Shown here: positions 207 to 9,928 of the stretch, in pieces
Numbering within the stretch: position 1 is the first letter of the stretch
Layout: each line of letters opens with the position of its first letter
Source of the DNA: Atribacteria bacterium SCGC AAA255-N14
GTDB lineage: Bacteria; Atribacterota; JS1; SB-45; 34-128
Reading direction: 5' to 3'
Assembly: GCA_000405345.1 (NCBI GenBank)
Contig: ASPC01000011.1
Location: forward strand, 1-11,033
DNA: 11,033 nt
Notes under the pieces: generated by a model
Seen by the model: only the letters and a program-made list of their open reading frames with translations
Told to the model about the DNA's origin: nothing
Database searches by the model: none
Position numbers and translations under genes: made by a program

Positions 207-1397
207 ATGAAAAAATCTTTTAATAATATAGCTCCAATAGTAAGCATTCTTGCAATTGGCATGCTGTCGATGAGCATACTAGAGCCTGTTCTACCACTTT
301 ACCTGATCCATGTCGGTTTTTCCTCTAAAGCGACGGGTGTAATGATTTCGGTCTTATGGCTTGGTATGATTATTGGTGAGAGTTCATGGGGATGGATAGC
401 TGACAAGATAGGAATTAGAATCCCAATGATTTGGGGAACTTTAGTTAGCGGTATAATATTGCTTGGAATTTTATTATCCAAAGGGACATATATTGTTTTT
501 GTTGCAATATTATGCTTGGGATTATTTCGGTCTGCAGTCTTTGGCCCAGCCCGGGGGCATGTAGGAAAGCATGCTCCTGCATTTAAAAAAGCCGCATTTA
601 TGGGAATAATTACAGTTGTAATTGGTGGTTCTAAAAGTCTTGGGGCTCTGTTGAGTGGACTTCTTGCCAGTAGTTTGGGGTACAGCTGGGTATTTTATAT
701 CACTATTGGTATTTATATTTTAGGTGGCTTAATAACAATTGTTATCCTTAGGGATTTAAAATATAATGCCCCCAAGCTTTTACCCGTAAATAAGCATTTA
801 TTTGTTAAAGATTCAAAAAATTATCGCTGCATGTTTTCTTTATGCGCAGTAACCAGCTGTGAATATTTTGGATTAGGTTTATTTACAACTTTTCTACCGC
901 TTCTCATTACTCAGGTTGCGGGCTTTAGCGTTACTTCCGTTGGTGTTCTTTTTACTGTGAGAGGAATAATTACTATGATATTTGGAGTTCCTATGGGAAC
1001 GTTGGCTGACCGCAAAGGAAAAAAATTGTTTATGATAATTGCTCTTGCGACGTCAGCAATTAGCATGATAGGAATCTCTGTGGCTAACAGCTTCCTATGC
1101 TTTTTAGTATCTGTCGTTTTATTTGAAATAGGTTTGGCTACGTATGGCCCCGCGGCATTAGCCCTACTGTCGGATTCCGTACCTTCTGAACACCAGGGGT
1201 CAGCGATGGGTATATACGGGGGTATATGCGAAAATACAGGAATTATGGCTGGGGCATTTTCGGGGGGATTTGTCTGGAATATTTTTGGACCACGAGCAAC
1301 CTTTTGGCTGGGGAGCCTGGTATGCATAATAGGAATGATTATGTGTTTGATTTTAAATATCGAAGAAATGGAACGTGTCAATAAACTTACGAATTAA
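207..1397 (+). CDS. MFS transporter, 12-TM drug/metabolite exporter type
   Basis: This is a 396-residue inner-membrane protein with about twelve hydrophobic segments, the usual length for the DHA1-like major facilitator family (proton-coupled efflux of drugs or small metabolites). The family-specific motif A appears twice, as expected from the internal duplication: GWIADKIGIR at about 62-71 after TM2, and GTLADRKGKK at about 264-273 in the second half. A Pro/Gly-rich segment at 113-120 and GPAALALLSD at 314-323 are also typical. The start ATG follows aagagg at 193-198 with 8 nt spacing. It stands alone, with a riboswitch/terminator-like leader upstream and about 215 bp of non-coding DNA downstream. 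The substrate cannot be read from sequence; if the glycine riboswitch call is right, an amino-acid-related substrate is possible. Confidence 0.92.
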   Translation: MKKSFNNIAPIVSILAIGMLSMSILEPVLPLYLIHVGFSSKATGVMISVLWLGMIIGESSWGWIADKIGIRIPMIWGTLVSGIILLGILLSKGTYIVFVAILCLGLFRSAVFGPARGHVGKHAPAFKKAAFMGIITVVIGGSKSLGALLSGLLASSLGYSWVFYITIGIYILGGLITIVILRDLKYNAPKLLPVNKHLFVKDSKNYRCMFSLCAVTSCEYFGLGLFTTFLPLLITQVAGFSVTSVGVLFTVRGIITMIFGVPMGTLADRKGKKLFMIIALATSAISMIGISVANSFLCFLVSVVLFEIGLATYGPAALALLSDSVPSEHQGSAMGIYGGICENTGIMAGAFSGGFVWNIFGPRATFWLGSLVCIIGMIMCLILNIEEMERVNKLTN

Positions 1398-1463
1398 ACG
1401 AACGGGAATAAAATAATGTATTTAGGATTAGGGAATTATATTTGTTGTTTGTATTTTCTTTAC

Positions 1464-1580
1464 AAAAAAGAAGGATTTTTTACATCTTTTGTCGTATTAA
1501 TATTAAGGTGTAGAAAAATTAGAAAAACTAATTCTTTTAACCGCTGGTGACGATTCAATAAGATAAATATATATTCTTGA
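1464..1580. repeat. Direct repeat, left copy (about 117 bp)
   Basis: It matches 2993-3110 in the same orientation, with about 80-85 percent identity by eye and a single 1-base indel. Shared blocks include AAAAAAGAAGGATTTT at the start, TCTTTTGTCG, the 10-bp palindrome TTAATATTAA (1497-1506) followed by GGTG, and CGCTGGTGACGATT near the end. It lies between the stop of the MFS gene and the stop of the reverse-strand initiator-like gene and encodes no evident protein. Together with the other copy it brackets the 1614-2444 gene and its repeat block. Confidence 0.85.
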
Positions 1581-1610
1581 AGTGTGAAAAAGAACCGTTC
1601 CCTGATACAT
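1581..1610 (-). repeat. REP/transposon-end-like motif (gaaccgttccc type)
   Basis: This 30-bp stretch has the form tgtgaaaaagaaccgttccc followed by tgatacat. Its reverse complement resembles the element at 7771-7803 (tgtga..ggggacggtt..gtcaca). Both match a motif recalled as common near REP-associated Y1 transposases in anaerobic Firmicutes. It directly abuts the left direct repeat and ends just before the stop codon of the reverse-strand gene. Confidence 0.5.
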
Positions 1611-1613
1611 ATA

Positions 1614-2444
1614 TTACATTTCAAATCTCTGAACTAGATTCTGTTCGATCCATTTTAGGTCTTCGTCCATGTATAATCTGTCCTTTTCTTCTTTTTCTTT
1701 CTTTTTAAGAGCTAATTTATTTAGTTTTACTATTTTACTTTCCGATTCCATTTCTTCTGTTTCCATTATTTTTTCTTCCTCATCATTTTCTTCTTTAGAT
1801 GATTCAGGATTAAGATAATTAGCTTTTAAGGCAGCAATCAGCCAGCCGGCAGGATTTATTACATTCCTCTTTATCCGGAGGAGGTCTAATTTTTCCTCAA
1901 TATCCTCCAAGGAATAATTTAAGATTGTTTTATAAATTGATTTTTTATTCAGATTTAATTTTTCCAATTCTTCTTTTATCCTTTCTGTCTTTAGAGATTT
2001 TTTATTATCAGGAACTATTTTATTGGGATTATTCTGATTGGAATAAGGAAATTCTTCTGATGTTCCAGAGATAATCTCTTCGTTTTCTCCCGGTAGTTTT
2101 TCTTTCGGGGGATAAAGAATATTTTCTTTATCTAAAAGGACTATTTGATAAAGATTATGGTCATATCCTCCGGAGGAAGATATTTGTTTTACTATTTTTT
2201 TGATTAGACCATATTCTAATAGAGTATTGCGGTATTTAATTAAGGTCTTGGTGGTAGTCCCCATCCTTTTATTTAGAGTTTGAATGGAAGGCCAGGCAAT
2301 GTCTTTTCCTTTATGACAGTAACTTAAGAGCTGAAGATAGAGCATGGCTGGGCCAAGGCCGATTATATTTACCCAGTGAGCCAAGAAGTAGTCCTGGATA
2401 GTTGTGTAAGGATTAGTTTTATTAACTGGTATTTTTGTTTCCAT
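1614..2444 (-). CDS. Winged-helix protein, plasmid replication-initiator-like
   Basis: A 276-residue cytoplasmic DNA-binding protein is encoded on the reverse strand. Residues about 30-90 form a helix-turn-helix/winged-helix domain: WPSIQTLNKRMGTTTKTLIK is the core, and LLEYGLIKKIVKQ leads into the wing. This is the pattern of HTH_36/RepA-N-like initiators and phage replication proteins. A basic and acidic linker follows, then NPAGWLIAALKANY at 197-210, a motif often found near the end of plasmid initiator-like and DnaD-like proteins, and a highly charged coiled tail (212-265). The start is supported by aaggaagg about 8 nt upstream (forward 2453-2460). The gene points away from a 500-bp block of palindromes and tandem repeats and is bracketed by direct repeats, so it may bind those repeats as initiator or autorepressor. 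A phage-type regulator is the main alternative. Confidence 0.82.
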   Translation of the reverse strand: METKIPVNKTNPYTTIQDYFLAHWVNIIGLGPAMLYLQLLSYCHKGKDIAWPSIQTLNKRMGTTTKTLIKYRNTLLEYGLIKKIVKQISSSGGYDHNLYQIVLLDKENILYPPKEKLPGENEEIISGTSEEFPYSNQNNPNKIVPDNKKSLKTERIKEELEKLNLNKKSIYKTILNYSLEDIEEKLDLLRIKRNVINPAGWLIAALKANYLNPESSKEENDEEEKIMETEEMESESKIVKLNKLALKKKEKEEKDRLYMDEDLKWIEQNLVQRFEM

Positions 2445-2496
2445 AGTTTTTACCTTCCTTTGAGTAGTTTTTTAATTACAGGTTTCGGGTTACAAG

Positions 2497-2518
2497 ATTA
2501 TATCTAGCGTATAGCGTA
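2497..2518 (-). promoter_or_regulatory. Candidate -10 box and 7-bp tandem repeat upstream of the initiator-like gene
   Basis: On the reverse strand a perfect TATAAT lies at 2502-2497, about 52 nt before the start codon. No good -35 hexamer is visible 17 bp further upstream. Just beyond it the forward strand holds two copies of tagcgta (2505-2518), which could be a small operator. Weak evidence. Confidence 0.3.
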
Positions 2519-2523
2519 TTCCC

Positions 2524-2565
2524 CCTCACCCCAACTCTCTCCCTCCGAGGAGAGAGGGAGTGAGG
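2524..2565. repeat. Long GC-rich hairpin
   Basis: Arms at 2534-2546 (actctctccctcc) and 2549-2561 pair over 13 bp with one mismatch and one wobble around a 2-base turn. The alternative outer pair cctcac (2524-2529) with gtgagg (2560-2565) can extend it. The region is strikingly pyrimidine-rich then purine-rich within AT-rich surroundings. No T-run follows on either strand, so it is not a standard terminator. It may be a REP-like palindrome or part of the replication/control region. Confidence 0.6.
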
Positions 2566-2578
2566 AGGAAAATATTCA

Positions 2579-2796
2579 CCCCTCTACTTATATAGATACA
2601 AAAAAGAGGTAATTTTACAGGGTAGTTGGTAAAATAATTTAAAATAATTTTCTCCCTCTACTTAGTAAGAGCAAAAAAGAGGCTAAAAAGCAACACCCTG
2701 ATGAAAAAAATATGAAATATTTTCCCCCTCTATTTACTACATTGCAAAAAAGAGGTCATTTTACAACGCTCTAATAAAAAAAATTTGAAAAATTTT
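2579..2796. repeat. Three tandem imperfect repeats of about 73 bp
   Basis: Three units each begin with CCTCTA(C/T)TTA, then about 8 variable bases, then CAAAAAAGAGG. Their cctct arms start at 2581, 2655 and 2727 (steps of 74 and 72 bp). In each unit cctct pairs with agagg (2605-2609, 2678-2682, 2751-2755) to form a 5-bp stem with an 18-19 nt loop. The rest of each unit is AT-rich and ends in an aaatnnaaaatttt-like tract; units two and three are clearly related across their full length (c.ctgat/ctaat plus A-run). The 73-bp period is about seven helical turns. No coding potential was seen. Confidence 0.75.
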
Positions 2797-2880
2797 AACA
2801 GCAACAGCAACAGCAGGGTAAAAATTCCACCCTAATGTTGTTGCTGTTCTATTTGTTACTGTTCTTACTTGTTGCTGTTA
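2797..2880. repeat. CAACAG/CTGTTG inverted repeats
   Basis: Three and a half tandem copies of aacagc at 2797-2816 are followed by gttgttgctgtt (2837-2848), a diverged gttactgtt and ttgttgctgtta (2869-2880). The 12-base arm at 2797-2808 can pair with 2837-2848, giving a long cruciform or hairpin. Its inner part holds a second small stem, gggt (2816-2819) with accc (2829-2832). It is a microsatellite-like trinucleotide tract embedded in the repeat block. Confidence 0.65.
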
Positions 2881-2942
2881 GTGTGGAAAAATTCCACTAG
2901 GGGGTGTGGAGAATTTCCACTAGGGTAGTGGAGAATTTCCAC
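2816..2942. repeat. Iteron-like palindromes GTGGA..TCCAC
   Basis: Three 15-bp palindromes lie at 2883-2897 (GTGGAAAAATTCCAC, perfect), 2906-2920 and 2928-2942 (both GTGGAGAATTTCCAC). A half-decayed fourth is at 2816-2830. The three intact ones begin 23 and 22 bp apart, about two helical turns, so they face the same side of DNA, and each is joined by a tagggg-like linker. This is the arrangement of iterons bound by plasmid initiators or of a cooperative operator array. The likely ligand is the winged-helix protein encoded at 1614-2444; that link is inference. Confidence 0.75.
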
Positions 2943-2992
2943 CTCATTATACGGAGGTTGACAAAGAATTAGAGGAAAATAATTTTATTTTA

Positions 2993-3110
2993 AAAAAAGA
3001 AGGATTTTATCAATCTTTTGTCGTATTAATATTAAGGTGAAGGAAAATTGAAAAAGTATAATTTTTTTGATCGCTGGTGACGATTAAATAAGGCAAATAT
3101 ATATTTTAGA
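2993..3110. repeat. Direct repeat, right copy (about 118 bp)
   Basis: This is the partner of 1464-1580. It keeps the AAAAAAGAAGGATTTT opening, the TTAATATTAA palindrome (3026-3035) and the CGCTGGTGACGATT block (3074-3087). A shorter related stretch may occur at 6353-6370 (cgctgacaattaaataa). It ends 87 bp before the restriction-modification start codon, so it could also carry promoter elements for that gene. Confidence 0.85.
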
Positions 3111-3120
3111 AATAGGTCTT

Positions 3121-3145
3121 TCAAGTATGAAGACCAGACCCCAAG
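3121..3145 (+). repeat. Transposon-end-like motif (gaagaccagacccc)
   Basis: The sequence tcaagtatgaagaccagacccc followed by aag is one of three related (g)aag.c..acccc motifs in the window; the others are at 6479-6497 and 9929-9956. The 6479 copy directly follows a transposase remnant. The relation to REP-associated transposase elements is from recollection of such ends, not from a search. Confidence 0.45.
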
Positions 3146-3157
3146 AAATTATTGACC

Positions 3158-3179
3158 CGAGAATTTATTTAAAATCTCG
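3158..3179 (+). promoter_or_regulatory. Small hairpin just before the restriction-modification gene
   Basis: cgaga (3158-3162) pairs with tctcg (3175-3179), extended by AT pairs. The hairpin ends only a few bases before the aagga ribosome binding site at 3185-3189 of a TTG-initiated gene. It could moderate translation; alternatively it is a remnant of transposon-end DNA. Confidence 0.3.
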
Positions 3180-3197
3180 TAAAAAAGGAAATAAACT

Positions 3198-6100
3198 TTG
3201 TTAAAACAATTATTAGAACAATATCTTAAGAATCTTACCAATACTTTTCAACGCGGTGATGCCCGTGAAGAAAGCTATTATGCTAACCTGGATGAATTAA
3301 TCAAAAAAATAGCCGCTTTTCTGAAAGTAAAGAATATCGATGTTACCATACTTCCCAAAAAAACGGAAGCGGGGAATCCTGATTTTCGCGTTTGGGATGG
3401 AAAAAACCATATTACCGGTTATATTGAAGCCAAAGATCCTTCTACTGCTAATTTGGATTACATTGAAGGAACCGAACAGTTGAAACGTTATTGCGATACC
3501 TTTCCCAATGTTATCCTTACTAATTTTTATGAATTTCGACTATATCGTGGAGGTCAGCGAATCGCTCAAGCAATGATTGGAAGGTCTACCATTGCCAGGC
3601 AATTACATACCCCGCCACCGGTCGAAAATTGTGATCAGTTTAAAGATTTATTCGAGACTTTCTTTTCCTTTTCTCTGCCCAAAATAAAATCAGCTCGCTC
3701 CCTGGCTATTGAATTAGCCAAACGTACCCGCTTTTTATGTGATGAAGTAATTGCTGTGGAAATAGAAGAAGATGGGACCAAAGGGCAAAAGCAAATCATT
3801 GGTGTTTTTGAGGCTTTTAAAAAATATCTGATTGGAACATTAACCGAAAGACAATTTGCCGATCTTTATGCCCAGACGATTACCTACGGTCTTTTTGCTG
3901 CTCGTACCAGGGCAAATGGTGAATTTAATCGCCGACTGGCTTTTGATTATATTCCGAATACTATCGGTATTCTGCGCGATGTCTTTCGTTTTATTTCTCT
4001 GGAAGAGCCGCCCAAGTCCCTGCAAATTATCGTTGAAGATATTGCCGAACTATTGCACGTCACCGATGTGAAAAAGATACTGCACGAATATTACAGTACC
4101 GGCAAGGGTAAAGATCCAATTATCCACTTTTACGAAACATTTTTATCTACCTATGATCCCGAAATCAGAGAACGTCGTGGTGTCTATTATACCCCGGAAT
4201 CCGTAGTGGGTTATATCGTCCGTTCCATTCATTCTGTTCTAAAAACCCATTTCGACTTATCCGATGGCCTGGCCAGTCCAGAAGTCAAACTACTTGATCC
4301 GGCAGGTGGGACACTGACTTTTCCCGCAGCAGCGATTCACCTGGCAGCAAAAGAATTTACCACAAAATACGGCGAAGGTGGTTTACATCACTGGATCAAA
4401 AACCACATCCTACCAGACTTTTATGCCTTTGAACTGATGATGGCCCCTTATGCAATTGGTCATTTAAAAATAGGGTTTATTCTGGATGAACTTAGTTATA
4501 ATCTTGCAGATGATGAGCGTTTTAAACTCTATTTGACTAATACTCTGGAGATGGAAGAGATTAAACAAATTTCCATTCCCGGAGTGAGTTCGTTAAGCGA
4601 AGAAAGCCACCTGGCGGGCGAAGTGAAAAAAGAACAGCCCATCCTGGTGATTCTCGGCAATCCACCCTACAGTGGTATTTCTTCCAATGTGAACGAATGG
4701 ACGGAAAAGTTATTAAAGGAAGATATCGATGGCTGCCAGAGTTATTACAAGGTAGACGACGCGCCGTTGGGAGAGAAAAAGCTCTGGCTCCAGGACGATT
4801 ATGTCAAATTTTTACGTTTTGCCCAATGGAAAATTCAGAAGTCCGGTTTCGGTATTGTAGGTATGGTCACCAATCATAGCTATCTGGACAATCCCACCTT
4901 TCGCGGGATGCGCCAGAGCTTGATGAAAACTTTTGATGAGATTTATATTCTTGATTTGCACGGCAATAGTTTAAAAAAAGAAACTACCCCTGAGGGAGGT
5001 AAAGACGAAAATGTCTTTGATATTAGGCAGGGCGTTGCCATTGCTTTATTTATTAAAAATAAAGAGAAAAAAGAATCATTAATCTATCAAGCTGATTTAT
5101 ATGGTTTGCGACAGGAAAAATATGATTGGCTCGATAACAATGAGTTTAATGAAAATAATTATCATGAAATTAAACCTGCTTCGCCCTGGTATTTTTTCAT
5201 TCCCCGAAATACTTCACATATTCAACGATATTTAAAGTGGGAAAGGATCAATGAAATATTTCCGATAAATGTAACCGGAATTGTAACTGCGCGAGATAAT
5301 TTTGTAATTGCTTTTGATAAATCTGAAATAAAGAGTAGACTGCTACAATTTAAAAATCTTACTTTGCCAGATGAAATTGTTAAAGACACATATAAACTTA
5401 AGGATACGAGGAGTTGGAAATTATCATTAGCCCGAAATAAATTATCTGAAGACAAAAATTGGGATACATATTATCAAAAAATACTCTACCGCCCCTTCGA
5501 TACAAGATATATCTATTATACTGAAATTATGGTTGATTGGGGAAGACCAAAATATATGCGCCACATGTTGGAAGATAATATTGCAATATGTTTCGTAAGG
5601 CAGTATTCTGGCAATGTTACGTATTCTCATTTTATTGTTTCAGAATGCATGGTTGATAATCGTACATTTTTCAGTAGTAAAGGCATAATTCAACTAGCAC
5701 CTTTGTATCTATATCCTGATGAAAAAAATAAAAACCTTTTCAATCATACTCAAAACGAAAAAGAACCAAATATTTCGCCGTTTGTATTTGGAAAACTAAG
5801 TAAAAGTTTTAACAGGAAACCCACTCCCGAAGAAATCCTCTATTATATCTATGGTATTTTTTACAGTAAGATCTACCGTGAAACTTACGCAGAGTTTCTT
5901 AAAATAGATTTTCCGCGGGTGCCGTTTACATCGGATTATGATCTATTCATAGAAATGGGAAAATTAGGCAAAGAATTAGCTGCTCTGCATTTACTCAAAA
6001 GCTCGGAGCTTGATTCGCCTATTGCCAAATATCAGGGTTCCGGAGATAATGACCGGATTGAAAAAGTAATCTATAAAGAAGATGAGCAGCGCATCTATAT

Positions 6101-6323
6101 CAATGAAGAAAAATATTTTGAAGGTGTTTCACCCGAGGTCTGGAATTATCAGATTGGCGGTTACCAAATCTTACACAAATACCTGAAAGATAGAAAAAAT
6201 AGAATAATGGACGATGCCCCACGATATTGCCGCATTGTTACAGCATTATATAAAACTATTGAAATTCAAAAACAAATCGATAATATTTACCCCGAAATAG
6301 AAAAAAATCTTGTTATATTTTAA
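3198..6323 (+). CDS. Type IIG-like restriction-modification enzyme (nuclease + N6-adenine methylase + specificity)
   Basis: A 1041-residue single-chain enzyme that would methylate adenine at a specific site and cut unmethylated DNA. Residues about 1-125 carry a PD-(D/E)XK nuclease: PDF at 61-63, EAK at 77-79 and QLKRY at 94-98. A helical connector follows. The methylase contains motif X at 328-334 (GVYYTPE), motif I as DPAGGT at 367-372 (a variant of DPACGSG) and catalytic NPPY at 488-491. The C-terminal region has DENVFDIRQGVAI at 603-615, YRPFDTR at 764-770 and FPRVPF at 905-910, marks of the type ISP/LlaBIII-like specificity region. No Walker A helicase is visible, and the length fits type IIG rather than type ISP. 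The start is TTG, with aagga about 8 nt upstream; no upstream in-frame ATG is offered. No separate methylase or specificity subunit is nearby, consistent with a stand-alone defence gene. Confidence 0.9.
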   Translation: MLKQLLEQYLKNLTNTFQRGDAREESYYANLDELIKKIAAFLKVKNIDVTILPKKTEAGNPDFRVWDGKNHITGYIEAKDPSTANLDYIEGTEQLKRYCDTFPNVILTNFYEFRLYRGGQRIAQAMIGRSTIARQLHTPPPVENCDQFKDLFETFFSFSLPKIKSARSLAIELAKRTRFLCDEVIAVEIEEDGTKGQKQIIGVFEAFKKYLIGTLTERQFADLYAQTITYGLFAARTRANGEFNRRLAFDYIPNTIGILRDVFRFISLEEPPKSLQIIVEDIAELLHVTDVKKILHEYYSTGKGKDPIIHFYETFLSTYDPEIRERRGVYYTPESVVGYIVRSIHSVLKTHFDLSDGLASPEVKLLDPAGGTLTFPAAAIHLAAKEFTTKYGEGGLHHWIKNHILPDFYAFELMMAPYAIGHLKIGFILDELSYNLADDERFKLYLTNTLEMEEIKQISIPGVSSLSEESHLAGEVKKEQPILVILGNPPYSGISSNVNEWTEKLLKEDIDGCQSYYKVDDAPLGEKKLWLQDDYVKFLRFAQWKIQKSGFGIVGMVTNHSYLDNPTFRGMRQSLMKTFDEIYILDLHGNSLKKETTPEGGKDENVFDIRQGVAIALFIKNKEKKESLIYQADLYGLRQEKYDWLDNNEFNENNYHEIKPASPWYFFIPRNTSHIQRYLKWERINEIFPINVTGIVTARDNFVIAFDKSEIKSRLLQFKNLTLPDEIVKDTYKLKDTRSWKLSLARNKLSEDKNWDTYYQKILYRPFDTRYIYYTEIMVDWGRPKYMRHMLEDNIAICFVRQYSGNVTYSHFIVSECMVDNRTFFSSKGIIQLAPLYLYPDEKNKNLFNHTQNEKEPNISPFVFGKLSKSFNRKPTPEEILYYIYGIFYSKIYRETYAEFLKIDFPRVPFTSDYDLFIEMGKLGKELAALHLLKSSELDSPIAKYQGSGDNDRIEKVIYKEDEQRIYINEEKYFEGVSPEVWNYQIGGYQILHKYLKDRKNRIMDDAPRYCRIVTALYKTIEIQKQIDNIYPEIEKNLVIF

Positions 6324-7491: not shown

Positions 7492-7545
7492 TACTCAGGG
7501 TTTAATGTAACCAGAACTCTGAATAAGCACTCCAGGTTAATATAG

Positions 7546-7617
7546 TCAGAACAAGGGCATGCACTCTAATCCCAAAAGCCTTGCGGTTTTTGGTCCAGGT
7601 GATGCCCGGCGTTAACC
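7546..7617 (+). other. attC-like integron cassette recombination site
   Basis: The site has attC architecture. The left half is AAC (7550-7552), spacer AA, then gggcatgcac (7555-7564). The right half is gtgatgccc (7599-7607), spacer ggc, then GTT (7611-7613). The halves pair as gggcat/atgccc and cac/gtg, leaving one unpaired G on the left arm, the extrahelical base characteristic of attC. The interior 7572-7592 forms a second stem, ccaaaagcc against ggtttttgg. Total length of about 70 bp is normal for attC. The outer core heptamers (tcagaac and gttaacc) fit the RYYYAAC/GTTRRRY consensus only partly. No integrase gene is in the window. Confidence 0.55.
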
Positions 7618-7659
7618 GTATAATTAAAGAATAATAGACACGAAAGATGGCATACTACT

Positions 7660-7821: not shown

Positions 7822-8556
7822 ATGGAAACATATAAATTATTTACAAAAAATCCAATAGAAAAGATAGAGGAAATTATTCTCCGCAAAGCTATTCCTTTTG
7901 CCTTGAAAGAAATTGCTAATGATTTAAGTAGAAATAACTTATACATTCAACAACAGCAAAAACTGTTTCATGTACTTCCATTATTAGCTTCTAAGGGGTT
8001 ACAAATAATGAGGAGAAAAGGGCGAGAAAACAAACAAATTTATGAATTATTTCATGGTTGTATTTTAACTGCTTTTTGGAATGGAATAGAACCAGATTTT
8101 GAACACGATTTATTTTATCCCGAAGACGAGAGCTACGACTTTTTAGTACTGAAATATCCTAGAGGAAAGAAGCCAGATTTTAAACCATTACCCAATAAAG
8201 AAATATCTAAAAACGCAGATGTATTTAAAATAGAGCTTGCAGAACTTACTAAACCAGAAAATTTAGAAAAAATTATCACTGACAAATCTAAATATAAAAA
8301 AAGAATTCCGCTGATCAGTATTGCATTTAATGGCCAGATTAATTTTCAAGAAATATTTAATAAATCATCAGAGGTTAATAAGAGTAATTTTGAAACTATT
8401 TGGTTAATGGGGCAAGTTAGTCATCCTAAAGACAAAAACAGATTATGCTACTTCATAGCCGAGATGGTAAAACATAAGGAAATATTCCCTTTGTTTGAAT
8501 TATTGATTGACTGGTCTAAAATTCAAAACGAAGTAAATAAGGTATTTTCAATATAA
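7822..8556 (+). CDS. Uncharacterised protein, 244 aa
   Basis: A soluble, Lys- and Glu-rich protein without signal peptide or membrane segment. The first 75 residues look mainly helical. After them comes a region with YDFLVL at about 109-114, KPDFKPLP at 120-127 and VFKIELAELT at 138-147; this D...E.A pattern is faintly reminiscent of restriction-like nuclease cores but lacks the usual E-x-K, so no nuclease claim is made. A hydrophobic strand LISIAFNG (163-170) and an aromatic C-terminal part (WLMGQVSH) follow. The ribosome site is weak: only gggg at 7806-7809, inside the end of the truncated upstream frame, which suggests coupling to it. It is visibly more AT-rich than the restriction-modification gene. 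No family recognised. Confidence 0.75.
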   Translation: METYKLFTKNPIEKIEEIILRKAIPFALKEIANDLSRNNLYIQQQQKLFHVLPLLASKGLQIMRRKGRENKQIYELFHGCILTAFWNGIEPDFEHDLFYPEDESYDFLVLKYPRGKKPDFKPLPNKEISKNADVFKIELAELTKPENLEKIITDKSKYKKRIPLISIAFNGQINFQEIFNKSSEVNKSNFETIWLMGQVSHPKDKNRLCYFIAEMVKHKEIFPLFELLIDWSKIQNEVNKVFSI

Positions 8557-8640
8557 TTACATTATAAGAGAGATAGCAAGGTTAGGCTTCGTAAGTTCCC
8601 AAATTAGTGAAAAAATTACAAAGAGACAGTTGTGTTAGCG

Positions 8641-8653
8641 CAATAATTCGGTA
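8641..8653 (+). repeat. 13-bp direct repeat caataattcggta, first copy
   Basis: Identical to 9847-9859, 1206 bp away, same orientation. The two copies bracket the 8902-9747 gene, and both lie just downstream of GTT-type cassette core candidates (8634 and 9835). Confidence 0.7.
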
Positions 8654-8776
8654 TCTTTTTCTAACTTTTCTTAAGGGGGCCTAGTAAGTCCAGTTTCCTA
8701 ATTTCTTCTCAAATGATTGAATATAACAGGAGAAAGTCATTTATTACGTTTTCATTATATTTTAAGAAATTACAGT

Positions 8777-8901: not shown

Positions 8902-9747
8902 ATGATTGAATGGATTACAAATAATATTGCATTTCTTACGTTATTTGCAACACTCCTTCTTGTTCTTATTACATTGTATTATACGATGTTAAACAGAAGA
9001 ATGCTGGAAATTTCATCTAGACCAACCGTCTTAATTGAGCCAAAAGAAATTTATCTGACTCCCGACCTTAATAGCAAATGCAATATCGAAGCTCTAAATG
9101 AATTCATAGAAGGGAAAAGGCTTTGGTTTCATATTAAACTTGAAATCGCCAACCTTGGTATTTCACCCGCACAAGATGTATTTCTGGACGCAAAGGTTCA
9201 TTTTGTAGTCAGAAAACCATTTAGAAATTCATGGCTTCCAATCGATAAACCAAAGCACCTAAGTTTTATATCTTCGCAAGGTGTCAAAGGAGCAAGTAAT
9301 AAAAAAACTATCGATATCTGTTTCGATAATTTTGTTGTAGGTGAAATGTTGAAAGATTTTTGTGAAGGGCGAAAGCACCTGGAAGGACATGCGGTGCTTG
9401 CCTCGCAAAAGGAAATTCAAAATAAAAACTTATGGCCCTCACCTCGAATTATTTTGACATGCTATTATAAGGATATCCAATCTATTAACTATTGCTCTGA
9501 ATACCAGTTTTTCTTTCACCTTTACTTTGATGAATCCGAGTCTAAAATAAAATGTTACATTTTGAATATGGAAGATTTAGGCTTTTTAGGCGTAAAGAAA
9601 ATACGTGCCAGAACGAGATATAGGTATTTAAAGCAGACCAGACATCTTAGATACGTTTCTTTTTGGGGGAAAAAGTTTTCCAAAGACGAGCTTGTTCTGC
9701 TTAGACGTGCTAAGGCAGACGAAAAAACAGAAAAAACCAATAGCTAA
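8902..9747 (+). CDS. Uncharacterised single-pass membrane-anchored protein, 281 aa
   Basis: The N-terminus has one strong membrane segment (about residues 8-29, IAFLTLFATLLLVLITLYYTM) followed by basic NRR, predicting a short outside end and a cytoplasmic body. The body begins LEISSRPTVLIEPKEIYL, an arrangement common in small membrane-anchored proteins of accessory islands. It then has several strands with IKLEIANLGISPAQDV at about 78-93, an immunoglobulin-like beta pattern (N-G-x-x-P/A-A). The tail is Arg/Lys-rich (ARTRYRYLKQTRHLRYV), suggesting contact with nucleic acid or lipid headgroups. Start chosen from gtatggag upstream (ggag 8890-8893, 8 nt spacing). It lies alone between two candidate cassette core sites. 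No known family or activity recognised. Confidence 0.75.
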   Translation: MIEWITNNIAFLTLFATLLLVLITLYYTMLNRRMLEISSRPTVLIEPKEIYLTPDLNSKCNIEALNEFIEGKRLWFHIKLEIANLGISPAQDVFLDAKVHFVVRKPFRNSWLPIDKPKHLSFISSQGVKGASNKKTIDICFDNFVVGEMLKDFCEGRKHLEGHAVLASQKEIQNKNLWPSPRIILTCYYKDIQSINYCSEYQFFFHLYFDESESKIKCYILNMEDLGFLGVKKIRARTRYRYLKQTRHLRYVSFWGKKFSKDELVLLRRAKADEKTEKTNS

Positions 9748-9772
9748 TCTACCTGGATATGGCCATAGTAAC

Positions 9773-9841
9773 AGCTAACAAGTGGCTGCACAAAGAATTG
9801 CTCATACGCCGCGGCTTTTGGGTGTCACGGGGACGTTGTAC
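9773..9841 (+). other. Weak or decayed attC-like site
   Basis: The left half AACAAGTGGCTGCAC (9777-9791) matches the left half of the stronger site at 7550-7564 at 12 of 15 positions and is typical of attC. The right side gtgtcacggggacgtt (9822-9837) has the expected gtg...GTT order, but its bases do not complement the left arm well. The interior contains gccgcggc. At 69 bp it has normal attC size, and it lies 26 bp after the stop of the 8902-9747 gene, the expected place for a cassette site. Confidence 0.4.
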
Positions 9842-9846
9842 CAGCT

Positions 9847-9859
9847 CAATAATTCGGTA
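9847..9859 (+). repeat. 13-bp direct repeat caataattcggta, second copy
   Basis: Second copy of 8641-8653. It directly follows the 3' end of the attC-like site at 9773-9841, which supports a repeated boundary rather than chance. Confidence 0.7.
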
Positions 9860-9928
9860 ACTTTACAAGTTCACAAAATATAAAAGAAAATGGTTTTATA
9901 ATCAGATTGAGTATAGAAATTTAAAAAT

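Follow-up and report, generated by a model that had tools for sequence, protein, structure and literature searches.

A promoter-like repeat family and an orphan replication-initiator-like gene with an iteron-like array in JS1 Atribacterota

We examined an 11,033-nucleotide stretch of the deep-sediment bacterium Atribacteria bacterium SCGC AAA255-N14 (contig ASPC01000011.1; hereafter the window), in which two direct repeats enclose a single reverse-strand winged-helix gene and its repeat-rich upstream region. We consider it probable that this bracket formed where a clade-wide, promoter-like repeat (R; left copy R1, right copy R2) met an orphan module composed of an initiator-like gene and an iteron-like array, and that the R copies are not the ends of that module. 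The status of R as a clade-wide repeat family of JS1 Atribacterota is well supported, as is, from sequence comparison, the relation of the enclosed gene to replication initiators. To our knowledge, gene acquisition in JS1, an uncultured sediment lineage, has been little studied. Rows of promoter-like repeats before restriction, toxin-antitoxin, and stress genes would provide a handle on JS1 defence islands, and R would help to recognize recently exchanged genes. For a first JS1 vector, the orphan initiator and its conserved array are a candidate origin.

In the arrangement we propose, R stands head-to-tail before many accessory genes, with R2 facing a type IIG restriction-modification gene and R1 being a stranded copy without a gene of its own. 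The initiator gene and its own palindromic array (~1610-2942) form a module that reappears in this clade in settings unrelated to one another, its iteron end lying near the point where a divergent gene (for restriction-modification, AbiE, or others) begins. This module may be a domesticated or stranded initiator-origin pair of plasmid or phage type, whose protein would bind the palindromes. Occasional cassette exchange through homologous recombination between same-facing R copies, and not the ends of a unit, would give the locus its bracketed look. Promoter activity, palindrome binding, recombination in R, and earlier mobility of the module are all inferred. The features of the locus are as follows.

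1453 to 1609, plus strand: R1, left copy of the promoter-like repeat (profile from relatives' copies), convergent with the 3' end of the initiator gene
1614 to 2444, minus strand: orphan replication-initiator-like gene, 276 amino acids, with an HTH_36 winged helix (PF13730), recognized by profile, PHROG, and pBS72 comparison
2521 to 2568, no strand: hairpin resembling a repetitive extragenic palindrome (REP), CCCCCTCACCCC...GAGGAGG, found in only some loci
2578 to 2757, no strand: three copies of a CCTCTACTTA...AAAAAGAGG repeat, ~73 bp apart
2838 to 2881, no strand: three direct repeats TTGTTGCTGTTCT (the TTGTTGCTGTT repeats), 15-16 bp apart, kept with the gene in other loci
2883 to 2942, no strand: iteron-like array of three palindromes GTGGA(N)5TCCAC, 22-23 bp apart
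2979 to 3140, plus strand: R2, right copy of R, codirectional with the restriction-modification gene and 58 bp upstream of it
3198 to 6323, plus strand: type IIG / type ISP restriction-modification gene, 1041 amino acids, faced by R2

The R repeat family

The direct repeats described in an initial annotation of this DNA are real, and the copies are longer than was stated there. They align at 86% identity over 1453-1526 and 2982-3055 and at 80% over 1513-1581 and 3043-3111; over the full copy R1 and R2 are 70% identical, and their 3' tails differ. R1 stops 4 bp short of the initiator gene's stop codon; that gene is the only open reading frame of at least 60 amino acids between the two copies. 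When 1453-1609 was used as the query, R was recovered from 14 of 41 related genomes at E<=1e-8; the best match had an E-value of 3.5e-54, and a single genome gave as many as 11 matches, with no more than 20 candidates scored in each genome. Because it recurs to this extent, the repeat lies far beyond chance. Both R1 and R2 were seeds of the family profile, and their own profile E-values hold by construction.

Within the loci examined, 41 long R copies, a subset of all R matches, were defined as profile matches of at least 60 bits covering more than 95 model positions, which excludes shorter or weaker matches, mostly the promoter part alone. Three of these copies have no downstream gene before the stretch ends. 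Counting genes of at least 100 amino acids, 35 of the remaining 38 copies are codirectional with the gene downstream, 27 of them within 300 bp of it. The three others are R1, the copy in genome G001 that corresponds to it, and a further G001 copy adjacent to that one; this last copy faces HicAB and was scored against the initiator gene beyond because the HicAB genes are shorter than 100 amino acids. Adjacent long copies are always head-to-tail (14 of 14 pairs).

Restriction- or toxin-antitoxin-type genes lie behind 11 of the 35 codirectional copies, a count that allows genes after the first and includes the HARE-HTH gene. They are type IIG (three), N6/N4 methylase (two), an EcoEI-type restriction subunit, a PLD-helicase, a RadC-D12 methylase protein, AbiE, and HARE-HTH (two); a second EcoEI-type gene stands behind a weaker R copy (L187, 51 bits). 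LexA and rubrerythrin also follow R, as do katG/Fur, named by eye. The metabolic genes behind R include those for a Dus enzyme, a DegT aminotransferase, and a TonB receptor.

R itself is ~155 bp long and consists of a promoter-like motif (AAAAAAGAAGGATTTT..TTTTGTCGTAT), a conserved leader of ~65 bp, and often a REP tail (GAACCGTCCCC). Where its first ~45 bp occur without the rest, an open reading frame in the same direction lies behind at 19 of 22 places examined, as counted by a loose rule with no control and with a few longer R copies among the 22. A strict motif for the promoter part was found 43 times in 10 of the 41 genomes, R copies included, vs. 0 times for the reversed control. We infer that the 5' motif of R is a promoter motif of the clade, and transcripts would then start just after the TTGTCGTAT motif.

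As a side observation, contig C145 of G001 (L174) carries five short promoter-part copies in one orientation. Three of these copies lie at the end of a 370-440-bp stretch that also precedes an R in another locus (L173); behind the three stand an AlbA_2 gene (Pfam), a gene similar to it (by eye), and one other gene.

Other roles for R were rejected. RNAalifold over 38 copies gave 0 consensus pairs, and no Rfam family reached its gathering score in the window, so that R is not read as a structured RNA; a permissive Rfam search of 1400-3250 returned nine matches, all far under the family gathering scores and read as chance. Folded as single-stranded DNA, 12 strands gave z-scores from -2.6 to 0.1 with no common fold, and R was rejected as an attC site or a single-strand promoter.

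A further explanation is that R is an element of the REP or miniature inverted-repeat transposable element (MITE) type, spread by RAYT transposases and carrying a promoter by chance, with the arrays being insertion hot spots. R often ends in a REP that flanks RAYT genes in the same genomes, a likeness to REP/REPIN systems as described in PMC8049555. The same REP flanks four RAYT genes as inverted pairs with the core GAACCGTCCCCT (L092, L094, L095, and L101, in G002, G004, and G011), and each of five genomes has 4-6 RAYT-family matches. However, the strict tail motif is present in just 19 of the 41 R copies, and no second inverted REP was seen at the 5' end. A REPIN comprises two inverted REPs cognate to a RAYT; R differs in its single REP-like tail, its promoter-like part and leader, and its strong orientation, both with genes and between neighbouring copies. 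A profile scan of the RAYT loci L091-L113 found no R match, and we regard spread by RAYT transposases as rather unlikely. In L094, one REP copy overlaps the end of the RAYT gene.

The initiator-like gene and its upstream region

The initial annotation had called the enclosed gene initiator-like, and protein comparisons agree. A profile search of the 276-amino-acid protein gave PF13730 (HTH_36) at 34.4 bits vs. a curated cut-off of 25, and the PHROG replication initiation families 270 (1.6e-9) and 26369 (3e-9) were matched. The ten PHROG matches comprise replication proteins (initiation, O-like, primosomal, and DnaD-like helicase loader) together with one family of unknown function. In a plasmid collection only two records matched, pBS72 of Bacillus subtilis and a vector with an identical protein. 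The pBS72 protein, a distant relative, is labelled a helix-turn-helix (HTH) protein in its records, and we take it to be the initiator RepA of that plasmid. It aligned with the window protein at 29% identity over 52% (tblastn, E 2e-7), and hhalign gave 96.8% over 76 columns. The alignment covers the winged-helix N-terminal half, and both proteins match the same PHROG initiator families; the window protein is shorter than that of pBS72, and its C-terminal half does not align. Unlike in pBS72, no partition or relaxase gene was recognized among the genes named, and the G001 contig that carries the initiator has chromosomal-looking genes (by eye).

Other collections gave no match: the DNA of the unit was searched against plasmids, and the protein against phages and solved structures. 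IMG/VR viral contigs contained no relative and no exact repeat core. Among the seven window proteins, no plasmid or mobility gene was recognized; three of these proteins lack any Pfam match, and the sole match of a fourth is below the cut-off.

A protein search returned 476 relatives at E<=0.001, with identities of 82-95% among the 120 matches listed. Ten loci with close relatives belong to named genomes, and the bins of eight of these loci bear the name Atribacteria or Atribacterota, which we take to be the JS1 lineage. Relatives binned as Deltaproteobacteria, Lokiarchaeia, and Thermoplasmata are probably misbinned contigs. Among 61 related genomes, 12 have a match to the gene, and a close form (at least 70%) occurs in G001, G002, G004, G005 (broken), and G011, plus the G003 contig; G001 has a second, broken copy. 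Since the ratio of nonsynonymous to synonymous substitution rates (dN/dS) is 0.21-0.38 in ten pairs of five loci, the gene is under purifying selection.

The upstream region (~535 bp) contains palindromes, direct repeats, and REP-like hairpins. The iteron-like array proposed in the initial annotation is conserved beside the gene in the loci of five close relatives, in the window (palindromes at 2883-2897, 2906-2920, and 2928-2942), and on the G003 contig. In an alignment of seven upstream regions, with the G003 contig starting within the array, the palindromes and their companion repeats are conserved, and the stretch toward the start codon varies by insertions. The CCTCTACTTA...AAAAAGAGG repeats are probably not iterons because their number and place differ between loci. 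A DNA query found the iteron block in 6 of the 61 genomes, namely all five in which the close form was found, plus G018; it was used in place of a strict pattern that was too narrow (2 of 61).

The HTH protein could alternatively be mainly a controller-like transcription regulator, binding the palindromes and controlling both itself and a divergent restriction or toxin-antitoxin gene. The palindromes do lie between the initiator gene and a divergent gene, and upstream palindromes also accompany distant paralogues (8 of 12 loci). Five of nine iteron blocks adjoin restriction-modification genes (window, G001, and G002, all one arrangement), AbiE (G011), or a toxin-antitoxin-like pair (G005:C68, by eye). 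The other four, however, adjoin an ABC exporter (G004) and a phasin-like gene (G005:C66), both named by eye, an AAA_14 ATPase (G018), and no close gene (G001:C90). Moreover, every PHROG match with a function is a replication protein, and the palindrome spacing and companion TTGTTGCTGTT repeats look origin-like. We regard a mainly regulatory role as unlikely.

The paralogous HTH genes differ in what precedes them. Palindromes of ~20 bp (for example GGGCACAATTCATTGTGCCC), one to four per locus, lie upstream of L075, L076, L081, L082, L083, and L084, and the solitary paralogues L078 and L079 (G006) have TTACCTGAGGTAA in common instead. None was seen at L077, L080, L085, and L086, and L085 has only 140 bp upstream. 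Some paralogues belong to a conserved cluster (L007:2560-9466; whole or in part in L075, L080, L081, L082, L083, L085, and L086) of genes for a helicase-like protein, the HTH_36 protein, sigma-factor-like proteins, small proteins that are presumably DUF2922 and DUF1659, a holin, and an endolysin. This cluster has the look of domesticated phage or plasmid DNA.

Contexts of the module and traces of exchange

On its iteron side the module meets R in the window, G001, G002, and G011; in G004 it meets the promoter motif only, and in G005 (C66) the adjoining sequence is unrelated. On the stop-codon side R follows directly in the window, G001, and G011 (shortened in the last), and in G002 and G003 katG follows directly with R further on. 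As the contexts of the two sides differ across loci, the left and right neighbours of the module vary independently. The R copies are not the ends of the initiator module, because it stands without R directly on one side in G002, G003, G004, and G005.

Two comparisons bear on exchange. The window and G001 can be aligned up to the outer edge of R1, and no alignment was found beyond it. A HARE-HTH cassette with a 245-amino-acid gene is common to G001 and G011 at 94% identity from R to R, and the sequence outside both ends is unrelated. R-mediated swapping is plausible because this cassette has R at each end and unrelated sequence outside; the evidence for exchange is this one case.

Several observations weigh against the account that we prefer. 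A sigma-70 consensus scan of 1300-3300 found 7 sites vs. a shuffle mean of 7.6, no excess. In the genome of the window itself only R1 and R2 were seen, and the family counts come from relatives. One close pair of short R pieces faces in opposite directions (L185); these pieces fall under the length limit and so are not counted in the 14 pairs. The predicted structure of the protein is poor (mean predicted local distance difference test score, pLDDT, 58). In G018, where no match to the gene was found, the iteron block precedes R and an AAA_14/DUF4143 gene. Short blocks were seen at two more places (G001 and G005), within a few hundred bases of contig ends, and given that position a gene beyond the end is possible. 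The R copies of the shared cassette exceed other intergenic DNA only a little in divergence, and for this reason crossovers in R are not proven. Finally, three loci (the window, G001, and G011) have an R copy immediately on each side of the gene, one of them shortened in G011, and a unit ending in the repeats explains this as simply.

Such a unit was the model of the initial annotation: an integrated mini-replicon or excisable element ending at R1 and R2. Recombination between the two would release a ~1.53-kb circle that contains a single R together with the iterons and the initiator gene. R1 and R2 are indeed direct repeats around an initiator-like gene with an iteron-like array, and R lies on both sides in the same orientation in all four loci visible on both sides (window, G001, G002, and G011), with no intervening gene in three of them. 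Against the model, katG directly follows the gene in G002 and G003, the iteron side lacks R in G004 and G005 (C66), R1 and R2 share only 70% identity overall, and no recombinase or transposase was recognized in the window. R is far commoner elsewhere without the initiator gene. The initial annotation had named one finding as contrary to its model, namely that the repeats belong to a generic promoter or REP family dispersed over the genome. The relatives contain just that: a promoter-like motif with a frequent REP tail, before many unrelated genes. The repeats therefore do not hold as ends of a unit, the module having other neighbours on either side, and we consider the model improbable; a living mini-replicon, or excision via R1 and R2, is possible but unsupported.

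The searches for an empty site with a single R covered relatives of the MFS gene and of the type IIG gene, and none was found. The MFS gene had no match at E<=1e-60 in the 61 relatives and is uninformative on this point. Type IIG relatives in G022 and G008 lie in a locus without R and without the initiator, which is a weak empty site because the proteins are just 74-75% identical. A third relative, in G014 (84% identical), starts 92 bp into its contig, and those 92 bp contain no R. No circle was found; for 8 among the 120 protein matches listed the longest contig is 1.4-1.6 kb, a length that fits circles or repeat-broken assemblies.

Comparison with known repeat arrays

Integron arrays carry head-to-tail repeats of ~130-160 bp between accessory genes, toxin-antitoxin genes included. 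The R arrays resemble integron cassette arrays in having head-to-tail repeats between accessory genes, but R shows no attC-like folding and precedes its gene. Tyrosine-recombinase (Phage_integrase) matches were present in all five genomes searched (G016 and G018 were left out), with none on the fragmentary array contigs C172 (G001), C7 (G002), and C79 (G011). It is conceivable, though doubtful, that the JS1 accessory genome is partly organized as head-to-tail cassette arrays in which R is both promoter and recombination seam, integron-like without attC or integrase, and that an initiator-iteron cassette could replicate excised R circles.

In the window, an imperfect hairpin at 7530-7622 is attC-like by eye with a folding z-score of only -1.7, and two further attC candidates (8556-8664 and 9755-9848) fold no better than shuffles.

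A second parallel is EGeRS of the pLS20-family conjugative plasmids, described in PMC8708921 as a single conserved sequence that recurs upstream of several operons whose accessory genes vary. According to the same paper, EGeRS1 also occurs on pBS72, is 420-750 bp long, GC-rich, and strongly structured, and is found on conjugative plasmids. R is like EGeRS, as described there, in being a repeated conserved sequence before several operons. It is unlike EGeRS in being ~155 bp long and AT-rich, in having no common structure, and in lying on a chromosomal-looking contig in G001. Conjugation genes were not noticed in the fetched loci, where no profile search aimed at them was made. Among the literature matches listed for mobile promoters, pBS72 RepA, theta/iteron initiators, and mobile elements or replication in Atribacterota, none concerned this element.

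Two observations lie elsewhere in the window. At its start (1-60), TGAAGGTAACAGGAGAGACC resembles a portion of a glycine riboswitch that the window edge truncates; Rfam gave no match at the gathering score. Further along, a 30-bp direct repeat (8629-8658 and 9835-9864, 83% identity) surrounds a gene of 281 amino acids at 8902-9747.

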